Under the pieces are notes generated by a model that did no database searches, was not told the origin of the DNA, and was given only the letters and a program-made list of their open reading frames with translations. A program made the translations under genes and the position numbers. Of a stretch of 64,000 nt of DNA, positions 1,374 through 42,170 are shown piece by piece. Numbering within the stretch: position 1 is the stretch's first letter; each line of letters begins with the position of its first letter. The DNA lies in contig NZ_JACMYK010000002.1 of the NCBI RefSeq assembly GCF_020889785.1, forward strand, positions 1 through 64,000. Reading direction: 5' to 3'. Source of the stretch: Bradyrhizobium acaciae (GTDB taxonomy: Bacteria > Pseudomonadota > Alphaproteobacteria > Rhizobiales > Xanthobacteraceae).

Positions 1374-1880
1374 TCAGTTCTGCTGCTTCCCGGCCGCGCT
1401 CGAGCCTGAGGCCTGGCTGTTGAGGGAACCGGCCTGGTCCATGGTCGACTTGAAATAGGTCTCGCCGTCGCCGAGCGTGATGCGGCGTTGACAGACCGGC
1501 ATGCAGCTGTAGGTCTCGCGATCGACGCCGCGATAGACAGTGACGAGCTGATCGGTCGGACCCTCGACCTGAATCTGGCGATCCACCAGCACCTGGCCGG
1601 TGCGGTCGAGCGCGATGAAGTTGGTGGCACCGTAGCCCTTGCCGGTCACGACAACGACCCCGCCATTCTGCAGGGTGACGTCGGCGATCAGCGGATTGCC
1701 GACAACGATCGTGGCAATGCCGCCGGGCAGCTTGACGAGCTTGGCCTGATCGACATTGACCGCGATCCGATCCGGATCCGGCGCTGCCGTTGCGAGCGCG
1801 GGCCCCAGCAGCATGGCTGCGGCCAACGAGATGAATCCAATGCGCGTGACGGCGCGAATACGCTGGGACTGAAACGACAT
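1374..1880 (-). CDS. Secreted pilus assembly protein, CpaC N-terminal-domain type
   Basis: A 168-residue exported protein that is essentially the N-terminal domain of a CpaC/RcpA secretin without the secretin barrel. A signal peptide (to about residue 32, ending near ALATAA) is followed by a domain with KLVKLPGGIATIVVGNPLIA and GYGATNFIALDRTGQ, the pattern seen in the N-domain of CpaC at 7.8-9.3 kb. The C-terminal part has a Cys pair (SCMPVCQR) and a low-complexity Ser/Gln tail. It lies upstream of and parallel to the tadE/tadG pair, so it may be an accessory of the pilus channel. Confidence 0.8.
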   Translation of the reverse strand: MSFQSQRIRAVTRIGFISLAAAMLLGPALATAAPDPDRIAVNVDQAKLVKLPGGIATIVVGNPLIADVTLQNGGVVVVTGKGYGATNFIALDRTGQVLVDRQIQVEGPTDQLVTVYRGVDRETYSCMPVCQRRITLGDGETYFKSTMDQAGSLNSQASGSSAAGKQQN

Positions 1881-36215: not shown

Positions 36216-37307
36216 CTATCGCCCGGCTTCGCTCCCCATGCCCCGCCGTATCCGCTCCCGCACCGTCCGCGCGATCGCGGCCGGTGCTTCGTCGGGGATC
36301 GCAAAGCACGAACTGGCGTTGATCTCGCAGAGCACGTAGGTGTCGGCGCCGACTGCGTCGCGCGGGCCGTAGAGGAAGTCCGCATCCCAGATCACCGGCA
36401 GCGACGCTTCATCGACCGCCAGCGTCGCCATCAACCCTGGAATCCATTCGTCTTCCATCAGCCGACGCAGCGCTCGGAATTGTGCGGCATCAGGACCGTG
36501 CATGATGCGCGGGCCGGGTTGAGCCTGCGGTGAGTCTGGGCCTTCCGGCGGCGGCGGGATCAAGGCCTTGATCAGTTGGTGACCGAAGCCTGCGACCTTT
36601 GATCCGCTGACATAGCAACGGATCATGCCCTCGGGCAGGCGCGGCTGGAATGCTTGATCGATGATGCAGCCACCCCACCCGAAATACGGCTCGCAGCGTG
36701 CCATGAAGACCTCCAGTGGAATCTCTTCGGGTTGGCTGCCGCGCAGTGCGTGGAGCACGCGAATCGTTGTATCCGCATCCGACAAGGCCTCGACCTTCCA
36801 GACGCCCTGCCCGCCATTGCCCCGGTTCTGCTTGACGACGCGCGGCCCGCCTGAGCGAAGCCGCGACGGGAATTCGGCATGGAAGGCCTCCGCGCTGGCG
36901 TAGCGATGCGTGTCGGCACCCCAGCCCAGGTGACGGGTCCGGTAGAGCACGTCCTTGACGCCCATCTTGAGGATGACGCCCGGATGCGCGCTGACCCATG
37001 GACGTTTCATCGGCCCCTTAGCCGCGACCTCGCGCAGCAGCGGATCGAGCGCTGCGCGGGTCTTGCCCTGATGGATCGGATCGACCCAGACGAGGACGCC
37101 GTCCATTGTCAGCAACTGGTCGCGAACGGGTTCGGCGAAAGTCTCGTCATAGACGACGGGAATGGCCTCGATGCCGGAGGCTTCGAGCGCTTCGAAGACG
37201 CGAACGAAACGGCTGTTCTGCGGCGTCGCCTCGCGGCGCGACGCGGCATCGCCGCGCCACAGGATCGCAATCTTGGAACGATGAGATGTGTGCTGTTCGG
37301 TGTCCAT
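36216..37307 (-). CDS. ATP-grasp-like protein of unknown function (Cj0069-like)
   Basis: A 363-residue cytoplasmic protein that looks like a complete ATP-grasp enzyme: an N-terminal Rossmann-like part (SKIAILWRGDAASRR), a nucleotide-loop-like block VVKQNRGNGGQGVWKV near 160-175, and a C-terminal metal/ATP block VLCEINASSCFAIPDEAP near 325-345. It resembles the Cj0069 family as I recall it; no substrate is established to my knowledge. ATG at 37307 with GGAG seven bases upstream. It stands alone and its leader can fold over that ribosome site. Confidence 0.65.
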   Translation of the reverse strand: MDTEQHTSHRSKIAILWRGDAASRREATPQNSRFVRVFEALEASGIEAIPVVYDETFAEPVRDQLLTMDGVLVWVDPIHQGKTRAALDPLLREVAAKGPMKRPWVSAHPGVILKMGVKDVLYRTRHLGWGADTHRYASAEAFHAEFPSRLRSGGPRVVKQNRGNGGQGVWKVEALSDADTTIRVLHALRGSQPEEIPLEVFMARCEPYFGWGGCIIDQAFQPRLPEGMIRCYVSGSKVAGFGHQLIKALIPPPPEGPDSPQAQPGPRIMHGPDAAQFRALRRLMEDEWIPGLMATLAVDEASLPVIWDADFLYGPRDAVGADTYVLCEINASSCFAIPDEAPAAIARTVRERIRRGMGSEAGR

Positions 37308-37311
37308 GTAA

Positions 37312-37390
37312 AAGCTCCACGACGTTGAGTGTCGCGCAGAGCTTGGACCGAAGTCTCACCGGGAGTCTGCCTGGTCCCCGTGGGAGGGAC
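37312..37390 (-). promoter_or_regulatory. Switch-like structured leader of the ATP-grasp gene
   Basis: On the minus strand, GTCCC (37390-37386) can pair with GGGAC (37378-37374), or the overlapping GGACC (37377-37373) can pair with GGTCC (37349-37345). Immediately after, AAGCTC (37344-37339) pairs with GAGCTT (37317-37312), which contains the Shine-Dalgarno GGAG; an inner CGAC/GTCG stem supports it. Mutually exclusive stems plus a masked ribosome site is the layout of a riboswitch or translational attenuator. It matches no class I recognise. Confidence 0.45.
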
Positions 37391-37456
37391 TCTAGACCAC
37401 CGCACGCAGCTTTCAAGATCGAAATGGGATGACGCGGATCGGAGGCCGATGCCGGA

Positions 37457-38542
37457 TCAGGCCATGATCCCGTGCAATCCCGACCAGCCGGTGTAGAGGC
37501 CGACCAGCACGATCAGCGCAACCGACACATAGGGCGCGCGCTGGGCAAAGCGGCTGAAGCCACCCCAATGACGCTCGACGTGGCGAAGGCTGAGCGCAGC
37601 CGCAACACCGGCCGAGACCATCGTGATCGCAAGCCCGATGCCGAAACAGAGCACCAGCACGAAGCCGAGGCTGAACTGCTTGAGCTGGACACAGAGCAGC
37701 AGCACGGTGATGGCTGCCGGGCAGGGAATGAGGCCGCCGGTCAGGCCGAACAGAATGATCTGTCCCGTCGTGACGGTGCGTCCGGCAAAGCGCTTGCGGA
37801 TATCGGCGGCGTGCGCGCGGGCATGTGCATCGTCCTCGTCGCCGAGATCCATATGCGCATGGTCATGCTCCTCGAACAGGACCTCTGCCGTGTCCGCCCG
37901 CACCGAGACGCGCGCCTTGAAGGCATGCGGCTCCGGAATTTCATCGATGCTCTCGAGATAGCCGTCCCGCTCGGTGAAGCGAAAATGCTGCTCGCTGCCG
38001 TCGGGGCGGATCGTCACGACCTCAACCTCGCCGGCCGCCGGCCGCGCCCCGGCCTCGCTGCGCAGCCGCCAGCGCGGCGGCACGCCATCCTCGTAGACTT
38101 CGAGCGACAGCGGCTGCCCGGCCAAGGTCAATTGGCGGGTCTCGTCGTGATGGTGATGATCATGATCGTGATCATGGTGATCATCGTGTTCGCCATTCTG
38201 CTCGCGCCAGGTGCGCCAGGCCATCCAGGCGGCGACCGCGATGATGATCGCCGCCGAGACCAGTTGCAGCCAGGCTTCACTGCGTTCGCCGGACCATTGC
38301 TGGCCGAAATGCAGCCCCGCCAGCGCGATGATCCAGACAATGGCCGTGTGCGAGATCGTGGCCGACAGGCCAAGCAGCACCGCCTGCAGCACCGTGCCGC
38401 GGATCGCGACGATGAAGGCCGCCATCATCGTCTTGGAGTGGCCGGGCTCGAGACCGTGCAGCGCGCCGAGCAGGATTGCACTGGGGATGAACAGCCAAGC
38501 ATGCGCGCTGCTTTGCTGGAGCAGTTGAGACAGATCGGTCAT
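37457..38542 (-). CDS. rcnA: Nickel/cobalt efflux protein RcnA-like
   Basis: Inner-membrane Ni/Co exporter of the NicO/RcnA family. First helix pair with HGLEPGHSKTMM, a long cytoplasmic loop (about 115-260) that begins with a His/Asp-rich metal-binding run (HDDHHDHDHDHHHH) and is longer than in E. coli, then GLTGGLIPCPAAITVLL and two more helices. ATG at 38542; a GTG at 38551 would give a GTGA overlap with rcnR, and either start couples the two genes. Confidence 0.9.
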   Translation of the reverse strand: MTDLSQLLQQSSAHAWLFIPSAILLGALHGLEPGHSKTMMAAFIVAIRGTVLQAVLLGLSATISHTAIVWIIALAGLHFGQQWSGERSEAWLQLVSAAIIIAVAAWMAWRTWREQNGEHDDHHDHDHDHHHHDETRQLTLAGQPLSLEVYEDGVPPRWRLRSEAGARPAAGEVEVVTIRPDGSEQHFRFTERDGYLESIDEIPEPHAFKARVSVRADTAEVLFEEHDHAHMDLGDEDDAHARAHAADIRKRFAGRTVTTGQIILFGLTGGLIPCPAAITVLLLCVQLKQFSLGFVLVLCFGIGLAITMVSAGVAAALSLRHVERHWGGFSRFAQRAPYVSVALIVLVGLYTGWSGLHGIMA

Positions 38543-38547
38543 GTGCT

Positions 38548-38826
38548 TCACTTCAAATAGGTACGAACGACGTCGATCAGATCAGCGGCGCCCTGCGCCT
38601 TCTCGGGATCCGCTTCCCGGGCAGGATCCACCACGTGATGGCGGATGTGATCCTCGAGCAGTTCCGCGGTGAGGCCGTTGATGGCGCCGCGAACCGAGGC
38701 CACCAGCATCAACACGGCGGCACAACCGATCTCGGACTCCAGTGCTCGCTCAACGGCCTCCAACTGGCCCTTGATGCGGCGAACCCGGCCGACGAGCTTG
38801 GACTTGTGCTTGATCGTGTGCGACAT
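38548..38826 (-). CDS. rcnR: Nickel/cobalt-sensing repressor RcnR
   Basis: All-helical DUF156 (CsoR/RcnR/FrmR) repressor, 92 residues. The residues that bind Ni/Co in E. coli RcnR are all here at the same numbers: His3, Cys35, His60 and His64. That separates it from copper CsoR and formaldehyde FrmR. Cytoplasmic; metal binding should release the operator just upstream and switch on rcnA. No Shine-Dalgarno sequence is visible before the ATG. Confidence 0.92.
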   Translation of the reverse strand: MSHTIKHKSKLVGRVRRIKGQLEAVERALESEIGCAAVLMLVASVRGAINGLTAELLEDHIRHHVVDPAREADPEKAQGAADLIDVVRTYLK

Positions 38827-38833
38827 GATAATA

Positions 38834-38854
38834 ATATAGGGGGGTACCCTATAT
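38834..38854 (-). promoter_or_regulatory. RcnR operator
   Basis: Inverted repeat ATATAGGG, five bases, CCCTATAT, with a six-G run across its left half. A G/C tract framed by TA-rich inverted arms is the known operator pattern of RcnR/CsoR proteins. It ends seven bases before the rcnR ATG, so it must overlap the promoter. It could also affect the divergent gene at 39009. Confidence 0.82.
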
Positions 38855-39008
38855 GAGTCAATGCGCTCCGCGCCCGGCAGTGGCGCGGGGAAGCCGGCGA
38901 AGCTTATTACGCCGGTGGCATGGCTTACCGGGGGTTTGCCGCACGGACGGCATTGAACACGGTCAATTCAAGAGCAAGACCAGCGAGACCACGGAAGGGA
39001 GGCGTCAC

Positions 39009-39365
39009 ATGAAACTCCACATCCTGATGTTGGCCATTCCGGTTCTACTTTCGAGCGCACTGCCGGCCGTGTCCAAGAGCAGCATCGGGCATAATGACGG
39101 CCCCTGGAATGCCGATCACATCGACAATTTGCCGACCGAAGTCCGGCAATACATCGCGGGGGTTTGCAAAGGGCCAGCCAGCGCTCAACACGACTTCGCA
39201 ACCTATTCGCCTCGCGAGAAGCGCTGGCGGATCAACCTGGAATATCTCCGGTGCGATGGCGTCGGCGCGTTCCGTCGGGGCAACCAATGCCTGGACGTGG
39301 ACTTCGTTGAGGTCGGCTCGCGATTTCGCCCCGGCGCAAAGCAATTCAGGGATTGCGGCTTCTAG
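39009..39365 (+). CDS. Small exported protein of unknown function
   Basis: 118 residues with a signal peptide (LHILMLAIPVLLSSALPA). The mature part has four Cys (residues 53, 82, 94, 116), probably two disulfides, and the block WNADHIDNLPTEVRQYIAGV. I do not recognise the family. ATG at 39009 follows GGGAGG by eight bases. It is divergent from rcnR and 230 bases before the chromate-type cluster. Confidence 0.7.
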   Translation: MKLHILMLAIPVLLSSALPAVSKSSIGHNDGPWNADHIDNLPTEVRQYIAGVCKGPASAQHDFATYSPREKRWRINLEYLRCDGVGAFRRGNQCLDVDFVEVGSRFRPGAKQFRDCGF

Positions 39366-39598
39366 ATCGCAGCAGTCGCGACAGTGTCTCGCGGCGAGCC
39401 TTGCGCTGCACCCGAGATATTGTTCCTAACCGCGCAGGTGAAATGTTCGTGACAGTGACCTGGACGTTTCGTCGATGACGGCGGCGCACTCAGGTTGACA
39501 TCGATCAGCACAAGGTCTTAATTCGAAGCACGGGGATGTGCGATCTCCCCGCGAGGCGACATGCCCAAGAATCGCGTCCTGTTCACCAAGGACGCACC

Positions 39599-40417
39599 AT
39601 GTCGTCATACACATCGATCTCATCAGAAAAATTGTCTCGTCTCATCGGCACCGCCAAGGCGCCGACCCTCGTCGACGTTCGTATCGATGAGGATTTCGCC
39701 GCTGACCCGCATTTGATCCCGGGCGCTGTCAGGCACTCCCATCGCGACGTCCAGGACTGGGCTCCCGGCCTCACCGGCCAATCCGTGGTGATCGTCTGCC
39801 AGAAGGGACAGAAGCTCAGCGAAGGCACCGCCGCCTGGCTCCGCTGCAACAACATTGCGGCCGAAGTCCTCGAGGGCGGCCACCTCGCCTGGAAGGAAGC
39901 GGAGCTTCCGACGATTCCCGCCGACAGGATTCCGAAACGTGACGGACGGGGTCGTACCGTCTGGGTGACGCGATCGCGGCCGAAGATCGATCGCATCGCC
40001 TGTCCATGGCTGATCCGTCGCTTTGTCGATCCCGCGGCTGTGTTCCTGTTCGTCGCGTCCGCGGAGGTCGAGGCCGTCGCCGAACGGTTCGACGCCACGC
40101 CGTTCGATATCGAGAACGTGTTCTGGAGCCATCGCGGCGAGCTGTGCACCTTCGATGTGATGGTCAAGGAATTCGGCCTCTCGACGCCGGCGCTGGAGCG
40201 GCTTGCGACGATGGTGCGGGCGGCGGACACAGCGCGGCTCGATCTCTCGCCGGAGGCGCCCGGGTTGCTCGCCGCCTCGCTCGGCCTGTCGCGGATGTTC
40301 GACGACGACCTCGAACAGTTGAGCGCCGGGATGCTGCTCTACGACGCCTTCTATCGCTGGTGCCGCGACGCGACACGGGAGACGCACAACTGGCCGACCA
40401 GCAAGGTGAAGCCGTGA
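39599..40417 (+). CDS. Rhodanese-ChrB fusion, chromate resistance protein
   Basis: 272 residues. Residues 5-105 form a rhodanese domain with the active-site loop CQKGQKLS (Cys67) after VVIV; residues 120-270 form the ChrB C-terminal domain (RPKIDRIACPWLIRR; HRGELCTFDVMV). ChrB-type proteins accompany ChrA in chromate resistance, as regulator or sulfur-related enzyme. With no helix-turn-helix visible, an enzymatic or redox role is more likely. First gene of a five-gene plus-strand cluster ending with chrA. ATG at 39599 has AGGA six bases upstream. Confidence 0.85.
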   Translation: MSSYTSISSEKLSRLIGTAKAPTLVDVRIDEDFAADPHLIPGAVRHSHRDVQDWAPGLTGQSVVIVCQKGQKLSEGTAAWLRCNNIAAEVLEGGHLAWKEAELPTIPADRIPKRDGRGRTVWVTRSRPKIDRIACPWLIRRFVDPAAVFLFVASAEVEAVAERFDATPFDIENVFWSHRGELCTFDVMVKEFGLSTPALERLATMVRAADTARLDLSPEAPGLLAASLGLSRMFDDDLEQLSAGMLLYDAFYRWCRDATRETHNWPTSKVKP

Positions 40418-41180: not shown

Positions 41181-41225
41181 GGCTTCGATCCGAAGCCTCA
41201 AATGCAGATTCAAGGGAGTAATCCT

Positions 41226-42170
41226 ATGCGGAACACGATTTCGGCGCTGATCGGCATCGGCGCCTGCCTTTTCGCCACCGGTGGAAGCGCGCAAAAGATC
41301 GACTGGCAGGTGTTCGCCGAGCCATTCATCTCGTCGGCCCACGCACAGAGCGTCGACTGGCAGAAAGTCGACGACACGCTCGGCCGAAAACCGGCCGTTT
41401 CGGGCGACGTGCATCGCTACGGCTTTCCGCGCACCGACCTCACGGTGACGCTCGACGGCGTTACCATTAAGCCGGCGTTCGCGCTCGGCGGATGGGTCGC
41501 CTTCAAGCCGATGCATGACGGCGTCATGGCGATGGGCGATCTTGTGCTGCTCGAGTCCGAGATCAATCCAGTGATGCTGAAGATGATCGGAAGCGGCTTG
41601 CAGATTACGGCGGTGCACAACCATCTGCTCGGCGCGAGCCCGGCCACCTTCTACATGCACGTCGCCGGTCACGGCGACCCGGTCCAGATCGCCACCGCGA
41701 TCCGGGACGCGCTTGCCGAAAGCAAGACGCCGCTCAAGGCCGCAGCGCCGGCGTCACCGCCACCGGCCGTCGATCTCGATACCACCCAGCTCGACCAGAT
41801 CATCGGCGTCAAGGGCCAGGCGAATGGCGGCGTCTATCAGTTCAACGTGCCACGGCGCGATCCGGTCACCGAAGACGGCATGGCATTGAGCCCGGTCGGC
41901 CCGATGGGCGTCGCGATCGCCATCAATTTCCAGCCGACCGGCGGCGGCAAGGCGGCGATCACCGGCGATTTCGTGCTGACCAATGACGAGGTGAATCCGG
42001 TGATCATGGCGCTGCGAACCCACGGCATCGACGTCACTGCGCTGCACAGCCATATGCTGGATGAACAGCCGCGCCTGTTCTTCATGCATTTCTGGGCCAA
42101 TGACGACGCCATCAAGCTCGCCAAGGGCCTGCGCGCCGCCCTCGACAAGACGGCGAGCACGAAGAGCTGA
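41226..42170 (+). CDS. DUF1259 (LppY/LpqO-type) exported protein with two repeats
   Basis: 314 residues with a signal peptide (to about residue 22). Two tandem DUF1259 units, about 42-165 and 185-310. Each repeats the same markers: E-x-N-P (E112, E255), H-x-H (131/133, 274/276) and M-H (H145, H288), so each unit could hold a metal. Function unknown. Located directly upstream of chrA. The ATG at 41226 is chosen for GGGAG seven bases before it; 41202 is an alternative. Confidence 0.82.
   Translation: MRNTISALIGIGACLFATGGSAQKIDWQVFAEPFISSAHAQSVDWQKVDDTLGRKPAVSGDVHRYGFPRTDLTVTLDGVTIKPAFALGGWVAFKPMHDGVMAMGDLVLLESEINPVMLKMIGSGLQITAVHNHLLGASPATFYMHVAGHGDPVQIATAIRDALAESKTPLKAAAPASPPPAVDLDTTQLDQIIGVKGQANGGVYQFNVPRRDPVTEDGMALSPVGPMGVAIAINFQPTGGGKAAITGDFVLTNDEVNPVIMALRTHGIDVTALHSHMLDEQPRLFFMHFWANDDAIKLAKGLRAALDKTASTKS

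Follow-up and report, generated by a model that had tools for sequence, protein, structure and literature searches.

Compact H-type pseudoknot riboswitches, such as SAM-II and preQ1-II, carry their pseudoknot near the ribosome site. The family closest to the element described here, chrB-b (Rfam RF03086), reportedly originates from the 2017 candidate RNA set of Weinberg and co-workers. A pseudoknot for "chrB RNA" was named in 2020 by CaCoFold (PMC7657543); the chrB RNA passage of that paper does not specify the chrB family, the bases involved or a link to the ribosome site. A limited literature search for chrB RNA and for chromate or orphan riboswitches returned no report of a ligand for the chrB RNAs.

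The leader of a Cj0069-family gene in the window (the whole 64,000-nucleotide stretch of Bradyrhizobium acaciae DNA analyzed here) is a cis-regulatory RNA of this catalogued family. The match to RF03086 at 37380–37336 on the minus strand spans positions 1–49 of the 49 in the model and scores 46.1 bits, against a gathering cut-off of 36.5. The chrB-b model R1, whose seed included this very sequence, gives 60.8 bits at 37336–37380. In the 64 kb, RF03086 and its sister family chrB-a (RF03078) are the sole Rfam matches at gathering cut-offs. The chrB-a model has no match at 37336–37380, where RF03086 alone is listed even at E values up to 0.1, and neither SAM-II nor preQ1-II matched in the window at the gathering cut-offs or, up to E 0.1, in 36900–39900. 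The preliminary description of this locus had proposed a new RNA class; the leader is instead a new member of a known one. For the broader part of that proposal, an RNA that acts in cis and combines a masked ribosome site with mutually exclusive folds, there is support from covariation and from predicted folds compared with shuffles. With chrB-b the leader shares hairpins P1 and P2, the CCAAG segment, an end-to-end score and an upstream position, ChrB being among the downstream genes of the family; it differs in one G.G mismatch in P1. It sits in the 5′ leader of a chromate-resistance-type or co-occurring gene. The Rfam match covers the core only, to which our analysis adds a masking helix, a promoter and the Cj0069 gene.

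All elements of this leader lie on the minus strand. The 5′ arm of P1 (ACGGGGA, 37381–37375) pairs with the 3′ arm (UCCCGGU, 37364–37358) in the predicted fold and in the P1 columns of the alignment, and its G.G mismatch also occurs in two other leaders. P2 (GAC-UUCG-GUC, 37355–37346) shows two-sided changes in all four counted pairs across the family. Among 100 aligned matches, 93 of them distinct, 94.8% of the P1 cells and 95.0% of the P2 cells are paired, and both hairpins are supported by covariation. Sequence comparison further supports a hairpin-loop/tail pseudoknot in chrB-b between GCAGA, within the P1 loop (37370–37366), and UCUGC, in the 3′ tail (37340–37336). The alignment model held P1 and P2 and no pseudoknot pairs, so the alignment was not fitted to this helix. 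In the pseudoknot alignment, drawn from 90 loci with matches to E 0.0005 only and with some chrB-a cross-matches inside, 97.3% of the 451 cells of GCAGN with NCUGC hold standard pairs. Covariation scores 0.419 for this helix, versus 0.154 for shuffled alignments; none of 500 shuffles scored as high, and slid controls stayed at or below 0.124. Three of the five pairs show two-sided changes (A-U becomes G-C in 19 sequences, for instance), and the fifth shows five further pair types; because the set contains chrB-a cross-matches and related sequences, these counts represent sequences and not events, and neither the number of two-sided pairs nor that of further pair types is clearly above shuffles (198 and 162 of 500, respectively).

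The 3′ strand of the pseudoknot is common to a second helix, which is predicted to hide the ribosome site. The preliminary description had placed a GGAG ribosome site seven bases before the ATG and had suggested that AAGCTC paired with GAGCTT masks it. Every word that it quoted is present on the minus strand: GGAG lies at 37318–37315, the ATG begins at 37307, and 37344–37339 pairs with 37317–37312. In the minimum-energy fold of the 3′ part of the leader this helix grows to 10 bp, formed by the anti-ribosome-site arm AAGCUCUGCG (37344–37335) and the masked arm CGUGGAGCUU (37321–37312), which carries the GGAG; it consumes all five pseudoknot bases. The idea of mutually exclusive stems thus survives with other partners, namely the GCAGA/UCUGC pseudoknot and the masking helix, while the GGGGACC stems originally named fail, as detailed below. 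The stretch 37355–37296 folds at −22.0 kcal/mol (z −3.1), as good a value being reached by 1 of 200 shuffles. Other stretches are unremarkable (86 nt, z −0.88; 100 nt, z −1.42), and the 46-nt core alone gives z +1.12, its fold being matched or bettered by 174 of 200 shuffles, in a folding program that cannot form pseudoknots.

Predicted masking by the pseudoknot strand recurs in the family. We kept 110 of 161 leaders, dropping 3 without a reading frame, 8 longer than 62 nt, 29 duplicates, 9 without a four-letter ribosome site and 2 without CAAG; nine of the 110 are chrB-a cross-matches, which leaves 101 distinct chrB-b leaders. Masking that involves at least two of the five pseudoknot bases is predicted in 86 of these, compared with 23% of shuffled leaders, and in 38 of the 46 that remain once sequences more than 85% alike are removed, compared with 24%. 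It appears in seven of eight downstream gene groups, with letters that vary among leaders: Cj0069 (38/45), ChrB (24/25), TauE/SafE (9/9), ChrA (6/7), MFS (3/4), ornithine-cyclodeaminase-like (3/4) and other genes (3/4), with lectin-like genes at 0/3. Most shuffled leaders mask their ribosome site as well (65–86% by gene group); masking as such is not special, and the unusual feature is that the pseudoknot strand does it. Judged against shuffled controls, the predicted folds thus provide an expression platform that is exclusive with the core. The masking helix hardly varies among the Cj0069 leaders and for that reason has no covariation of its own there; it is weakened in the AAGTCTGC group and in two further leaders, and seven of the 45 leaders do not use the pseudoknot strand for masking. 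In five Cj0069 leaders one C is missing (CCAAGUCUGC); the masking helix is shorter as a result and the pseudoknot letters stay intact, and such leaders may be leakier.

Upstream of the core, TTGAAA-16-TAGAGT at 37416–37389 (minus strand) is the only promoter match in 37250–37480. Similar letters to those of the −35 hexamer (37416–37411) stand at the same distance in related leaders, and the −10 hexamer (37394–37389) would place the transcription start near 37382–37380. A −10-like hexamer lies 11–19 nt upstream of P1 in 116 of 152 distinct leaders, against a mean of 22.7 in shuffles, in a set to which chrB-a cross-matches and numerous closely related Bradyrhizobium sequences also belong. The promoter position and the recurring hexamers suggest that the transcript probably starts at P1, and not downstream of 37345, a position that the preliminary description had named as refuting its proposal. 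They also bear on its central proposal, a switch of a new class in which GGGGACC alternates between an upstream GTCCC and a downstream GGTCC. These words are complementary in the single window sequence. However, GTCCC (37390–37386) overlaps the final two bases of the promoter match, within the predicted −10/start region, and given this overlap and the recurrence of −10-like hexamers before P1 it probably lies outside the RNA. The downstream pairing, GGACC with GGUCC, has a covariation score at the level of shuffles (0.116 versus 0.114) and is paired in 75.8% of cells, compared with 74.0% when shuffled. Compensatory changes in homologs are present for helices other than the GGGGACC pairings, and the site itself is claimed by the chrB-b match, so that we regard this alternation as very improbable. 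A terminator-type expression platform was likewise considered and rejected, as no terminator-like site was found in 37250–37480.

The regulated gene (36216–37307, minus strand) encodes a protein of the Cj0069 family (NF033816; DUF6815), matched at 379 bits against a cut-off of 150, and is single-copy in its genome. Of its 179 relatives we kept 80; the nearest named ones are proteins of B. oropedii and B. uaiense, each 92% identical. The AlphaFold2 model (mean pLDDT 84.2) supports an ATP-grasp fold over most of the chain, in agreement with the preliminary description. Its nearest fold is the D-cycloserine synthetase DcsG (6jil_B; Z 21.8, rmsd 3.2, 277 residues), and close folds include glutathione synthetase (1gsa; Z 19.4, rmsd 3.5, 269 residues), ArgX, RimK, inositol-phosphate kinases and D-Ala ligases. 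By sequence, the search of solved structures gave one match, at E 0.82, which we took as chance. A limited search returned no literature that links chromate, ATP-grasp and chrB.

The preliminary description had called this gene an orphan, yet it belongs to a named family that recurs with chrB-b, often near ChrB or ChrA. Cj0069 occurs in 75 of 146 genus genomes (73 over the cut-off) but in no more than 4 of 289 from the class, one of which is the window's own. At the 80 named loci, chrB-b ends 26–57 nt before the matched Cj0069 frame in 62; in the 30 loci returned from the genus search it lies just upstream of Cj0069 in 29. Cj0069 follows 10 of the 44 chrB-b sites in an order-wide draw, counting the window. 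The 18 named Cj0069 loci without chrB-b include Paraburkholderia, Burkholderia, Caballeronia, Bosea, Agrobacterium, Dankookia and Acetobacteraceae; ChrB is present at 13 of these loci and ChrA at 12, and four show the gene order ChrB, ChrA, Cj0069. At the 62 loci with chrB-b, ChrB was found in 21 and ChrA in 7 within the stretch examined, which indicates that the link there runs mainly through the RNA. The tie to chrB-b and the ChrB and ChrA neighbors together place Cj0069 with the chromate-resistance set, though not always adjacent to it.

At E values up to 0.001, chrB-b is present in 31 of 397 order, 34 of 385 class and 116 of 146 genus genomes; 24, 25 and 112 of these, respectively, exceed the curated cut-off. 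The genes after 89 distinct chrB-b sites were grouped by the motifs in their sequences; Pfam was run on seven of them as representatives and left one without a match. They comprise 26 Cj0069, 26 ChrB/rhodanese, 9 MFS, 8 TauE/SafE, 7 ChrA, 3 lectin-like and 3 ornithine-cyclodeaminase-like genes, 6 without an assigned group (among them L048, which is counted as ornithine-cyclodeaminase-like in the masking analysis) and 1 site without a frame; Cj0069 is over-represented here, since some loci were fetched through Cj0069. This gene set points to export and detoxification and not to one clear metabolite.

Two smaller groups of downstream genes deserve mention. At three loci (L012, L017 and L047; positions 1501–1547, minus strand) chrB-b precedes ornithine cyclodeaminase/mu-crystallin-like genes, an unexpected member of a chromate-type regulon, for which Pfam was run on L012 only. 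Lectin-like proteins follow chrB-b at L003 and L034, which are the same site, and at L057 and L058; none of the three lectin-type leaders uses the pseudoknot strand for masking. The protein at L003 matches Pfam Glyco_hydro_59_C at 28.5 bits.

The sister element chrB-a lies about 2.1 kb from chrB-b in the window, at 39527–39601 on the plus strand (78.3 bits, gathering cut-off 43.9), and also matches chrB-b below cut-off (24.8 bits). It precedes ChrB (rhodanese plus ChrB_C; 39599–40417, plus strand), whose start we take as the ATG that ends the chrB-a match, the open reading frame being listed from 39536. The order of P1, pseudoknot and P2 is as in chrB-b, and a ribosome-site hairpin again takes pseudoknot bases; in contrast to chrB-b, the pseudoknot letters are GCGAU/AUCGC and only two bases are shared with that hairpin. 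Across 30 sequences (the window and 29 drawn class-wide), GCGAN/NUCGC is paired in 95.9% of cells. The hairpin GCGUCC/GGACGC before the start codon has all six positions paired in 28 of the 30, and in 6 A-U replaces G-C. In single sequences, complementarity of this kind can readily arise by chance (mean shuffle fraction 0.21), so the weight of this hairpin lies in its recurrence and paired changes. Matches to chrB-a occur in 141 of 146 genomes of the genus and in 30 of 385 of the class.

In the window, chrB-a and chrB-b are separated by genes for a nickel/cobalt efflux RcnA-like protein with a His-rich stretch (37457–38551, minus strand) and an FrmR/RcnR-type repressor (38548–38826, minus strand); RcnA and FrmR were each matched in 18 of the 62 Cj0069 loci with chrB-b. 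In three genomes the two RNAs are close and divergent, with 134–193 nt between the Rfam matches. A DUF1259 (PF07485) protein is encoded behind ChrB (41202–42170, plus strand), and at three other loci a similar-looking protein begins about 150 nt behind a chrB-a-like match to model R1.

The position of chrB-a raises the question of whether ChrB is the sensor. We looked for ChrB_C in 76 genomes: 32 of the 34 class-draw genomes with chrB-b, 26 of the 30 with chrB-a (leaving out the window's own, one from the genus and two that the chrB-b list already contained) and the 18 first listed with neither RNA, of which 2 had a match. That ChrB or another regulator binds the chrB-a and chrB-b RNAs and controls translation, as in autoregulated operons, would suit both the location of chrB-a before ChrB and the presence of ChrB_C in all 26 genomes with chrB-a and without chrB-b. 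Among the 32 chrB-b genomes, however, only 20 have ChrB_C. Of the 12 misses, seven have an RNA that exceeds the Rfam cut-off and seven reach a completeness of at least 99%, both being true of G658 and G713 only. ChrB is thus not found wherever the RNA is, and some of the misses correspond to weak RNA matches or incomplete assemblies; with two genomes for which both hold, we read this as moderate evidence that the RNA may be independent of ChrB. ChrB as an obligatory sensor was rejected on these 12 genomes. A compact pseudoknot with a conserved linker is moreover reminiscent of small-molecule aptamers, and we consider a protein-binding leader quite unlikely. The RNA tracks the chromate set and seems not to need ChrB, which favors sensing by the RNA itself or by another factor.

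We propose that the leader of the Cj0069 gene is a chrB-b RNA that acts as a translational ON switch, a reading to which we give a probability of about two in three. The transcript would begin at P1 and by default adopt an OFF state, in which AAGCUCUGCG pairs with CGUGGAGCUU and the ribosome site is hidden. Stabilization of the core, with a small molecule or ion that builds up during chromate-type stress as the likeliest agent, would allow the GCAGA of the P1 loop to capture UCUGC as a pseudoknot; the masking helix would lose this strand and the ribosome site would open. In front of ChrB, chrB-a would use the same core and the same trick. The proposed direction of the switch draws on predicted energies: pulling the pseudoknot bases from the window's masking helix costs 8.0 kcal/mol, and the isolated 5-bp pseudoknot duplex is worth −5.4 kcal/mol including the initiation penalty, with loop costs and tertiary contacts of the pseudoknot in neither figure. 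The comparison suggests that OFF is the default and that a modest stabilization could tip the balance, so that an ON switch, which also suits resistance and export genes, is the simplest reading. Blocking the five pseudoknot bases raises the unpaired fraction of the window's ribosome site only from 0.07 to 0.21, since AAGC/GCUU remains paired, and fuller release would need CAAG to be engaged; when this conserved segment is engaged too, the mean over 45 Cj0069 leaders rises from 0.21 to 0.44.

The energy price of opening the OFF helix and the gain from the pseudoknot are comparable in size, which would also fit a leader that merely tunes translation with temperature, Mg2+ or growth and has no specific ligand. 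Against this, the CAAG linker is conserved outside the counted helices and the same stress-type genes recur, both of which suggest specific recognition; we consider such a general switch unlikely.

Returning to the ON switch, we tentatively extend it to both RNAs, a wider reading that we hold at somewhat less than even odds. Under it, chrB-a and chrB-b would be two subtypes of one class of ligand-sensing ON riboswitch, in which a compact pseudoknot shares its 3′ strand with the masking helix. The class would serve a ChrB-independent stress regulon of ChrA, ChrB, TauE/SafE and MFS transporters, an ornithine-cyclodeaminase-like enzyme and the Cj0069 ATP-grasp ligase, with a product or toxicant of chromate or oxyanion stress as ligand. 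The recurring gene set, the shared strand and the ATP-grasp tie offer concrete constructs and candidate ligands for a soil bacterium. If the ligand were found, it would help to explain the sensing of chromate-type stress in these bacteria and the purpose of the Cj0069 enzymes.

Relative to the Rfam family model, our analysis adds the identity of the competing strands, the design common to chrB-a and chrB-b and the regular tie to the Cj0069 ATP-grasp gene; the chrB RNA may, in addition, be independent of ChrB. Like SAM-II and preQ1-II, the RNA in the window carries its pseudoknot close to the ribosome site; unlike them, it appears to switch in the ON direction.
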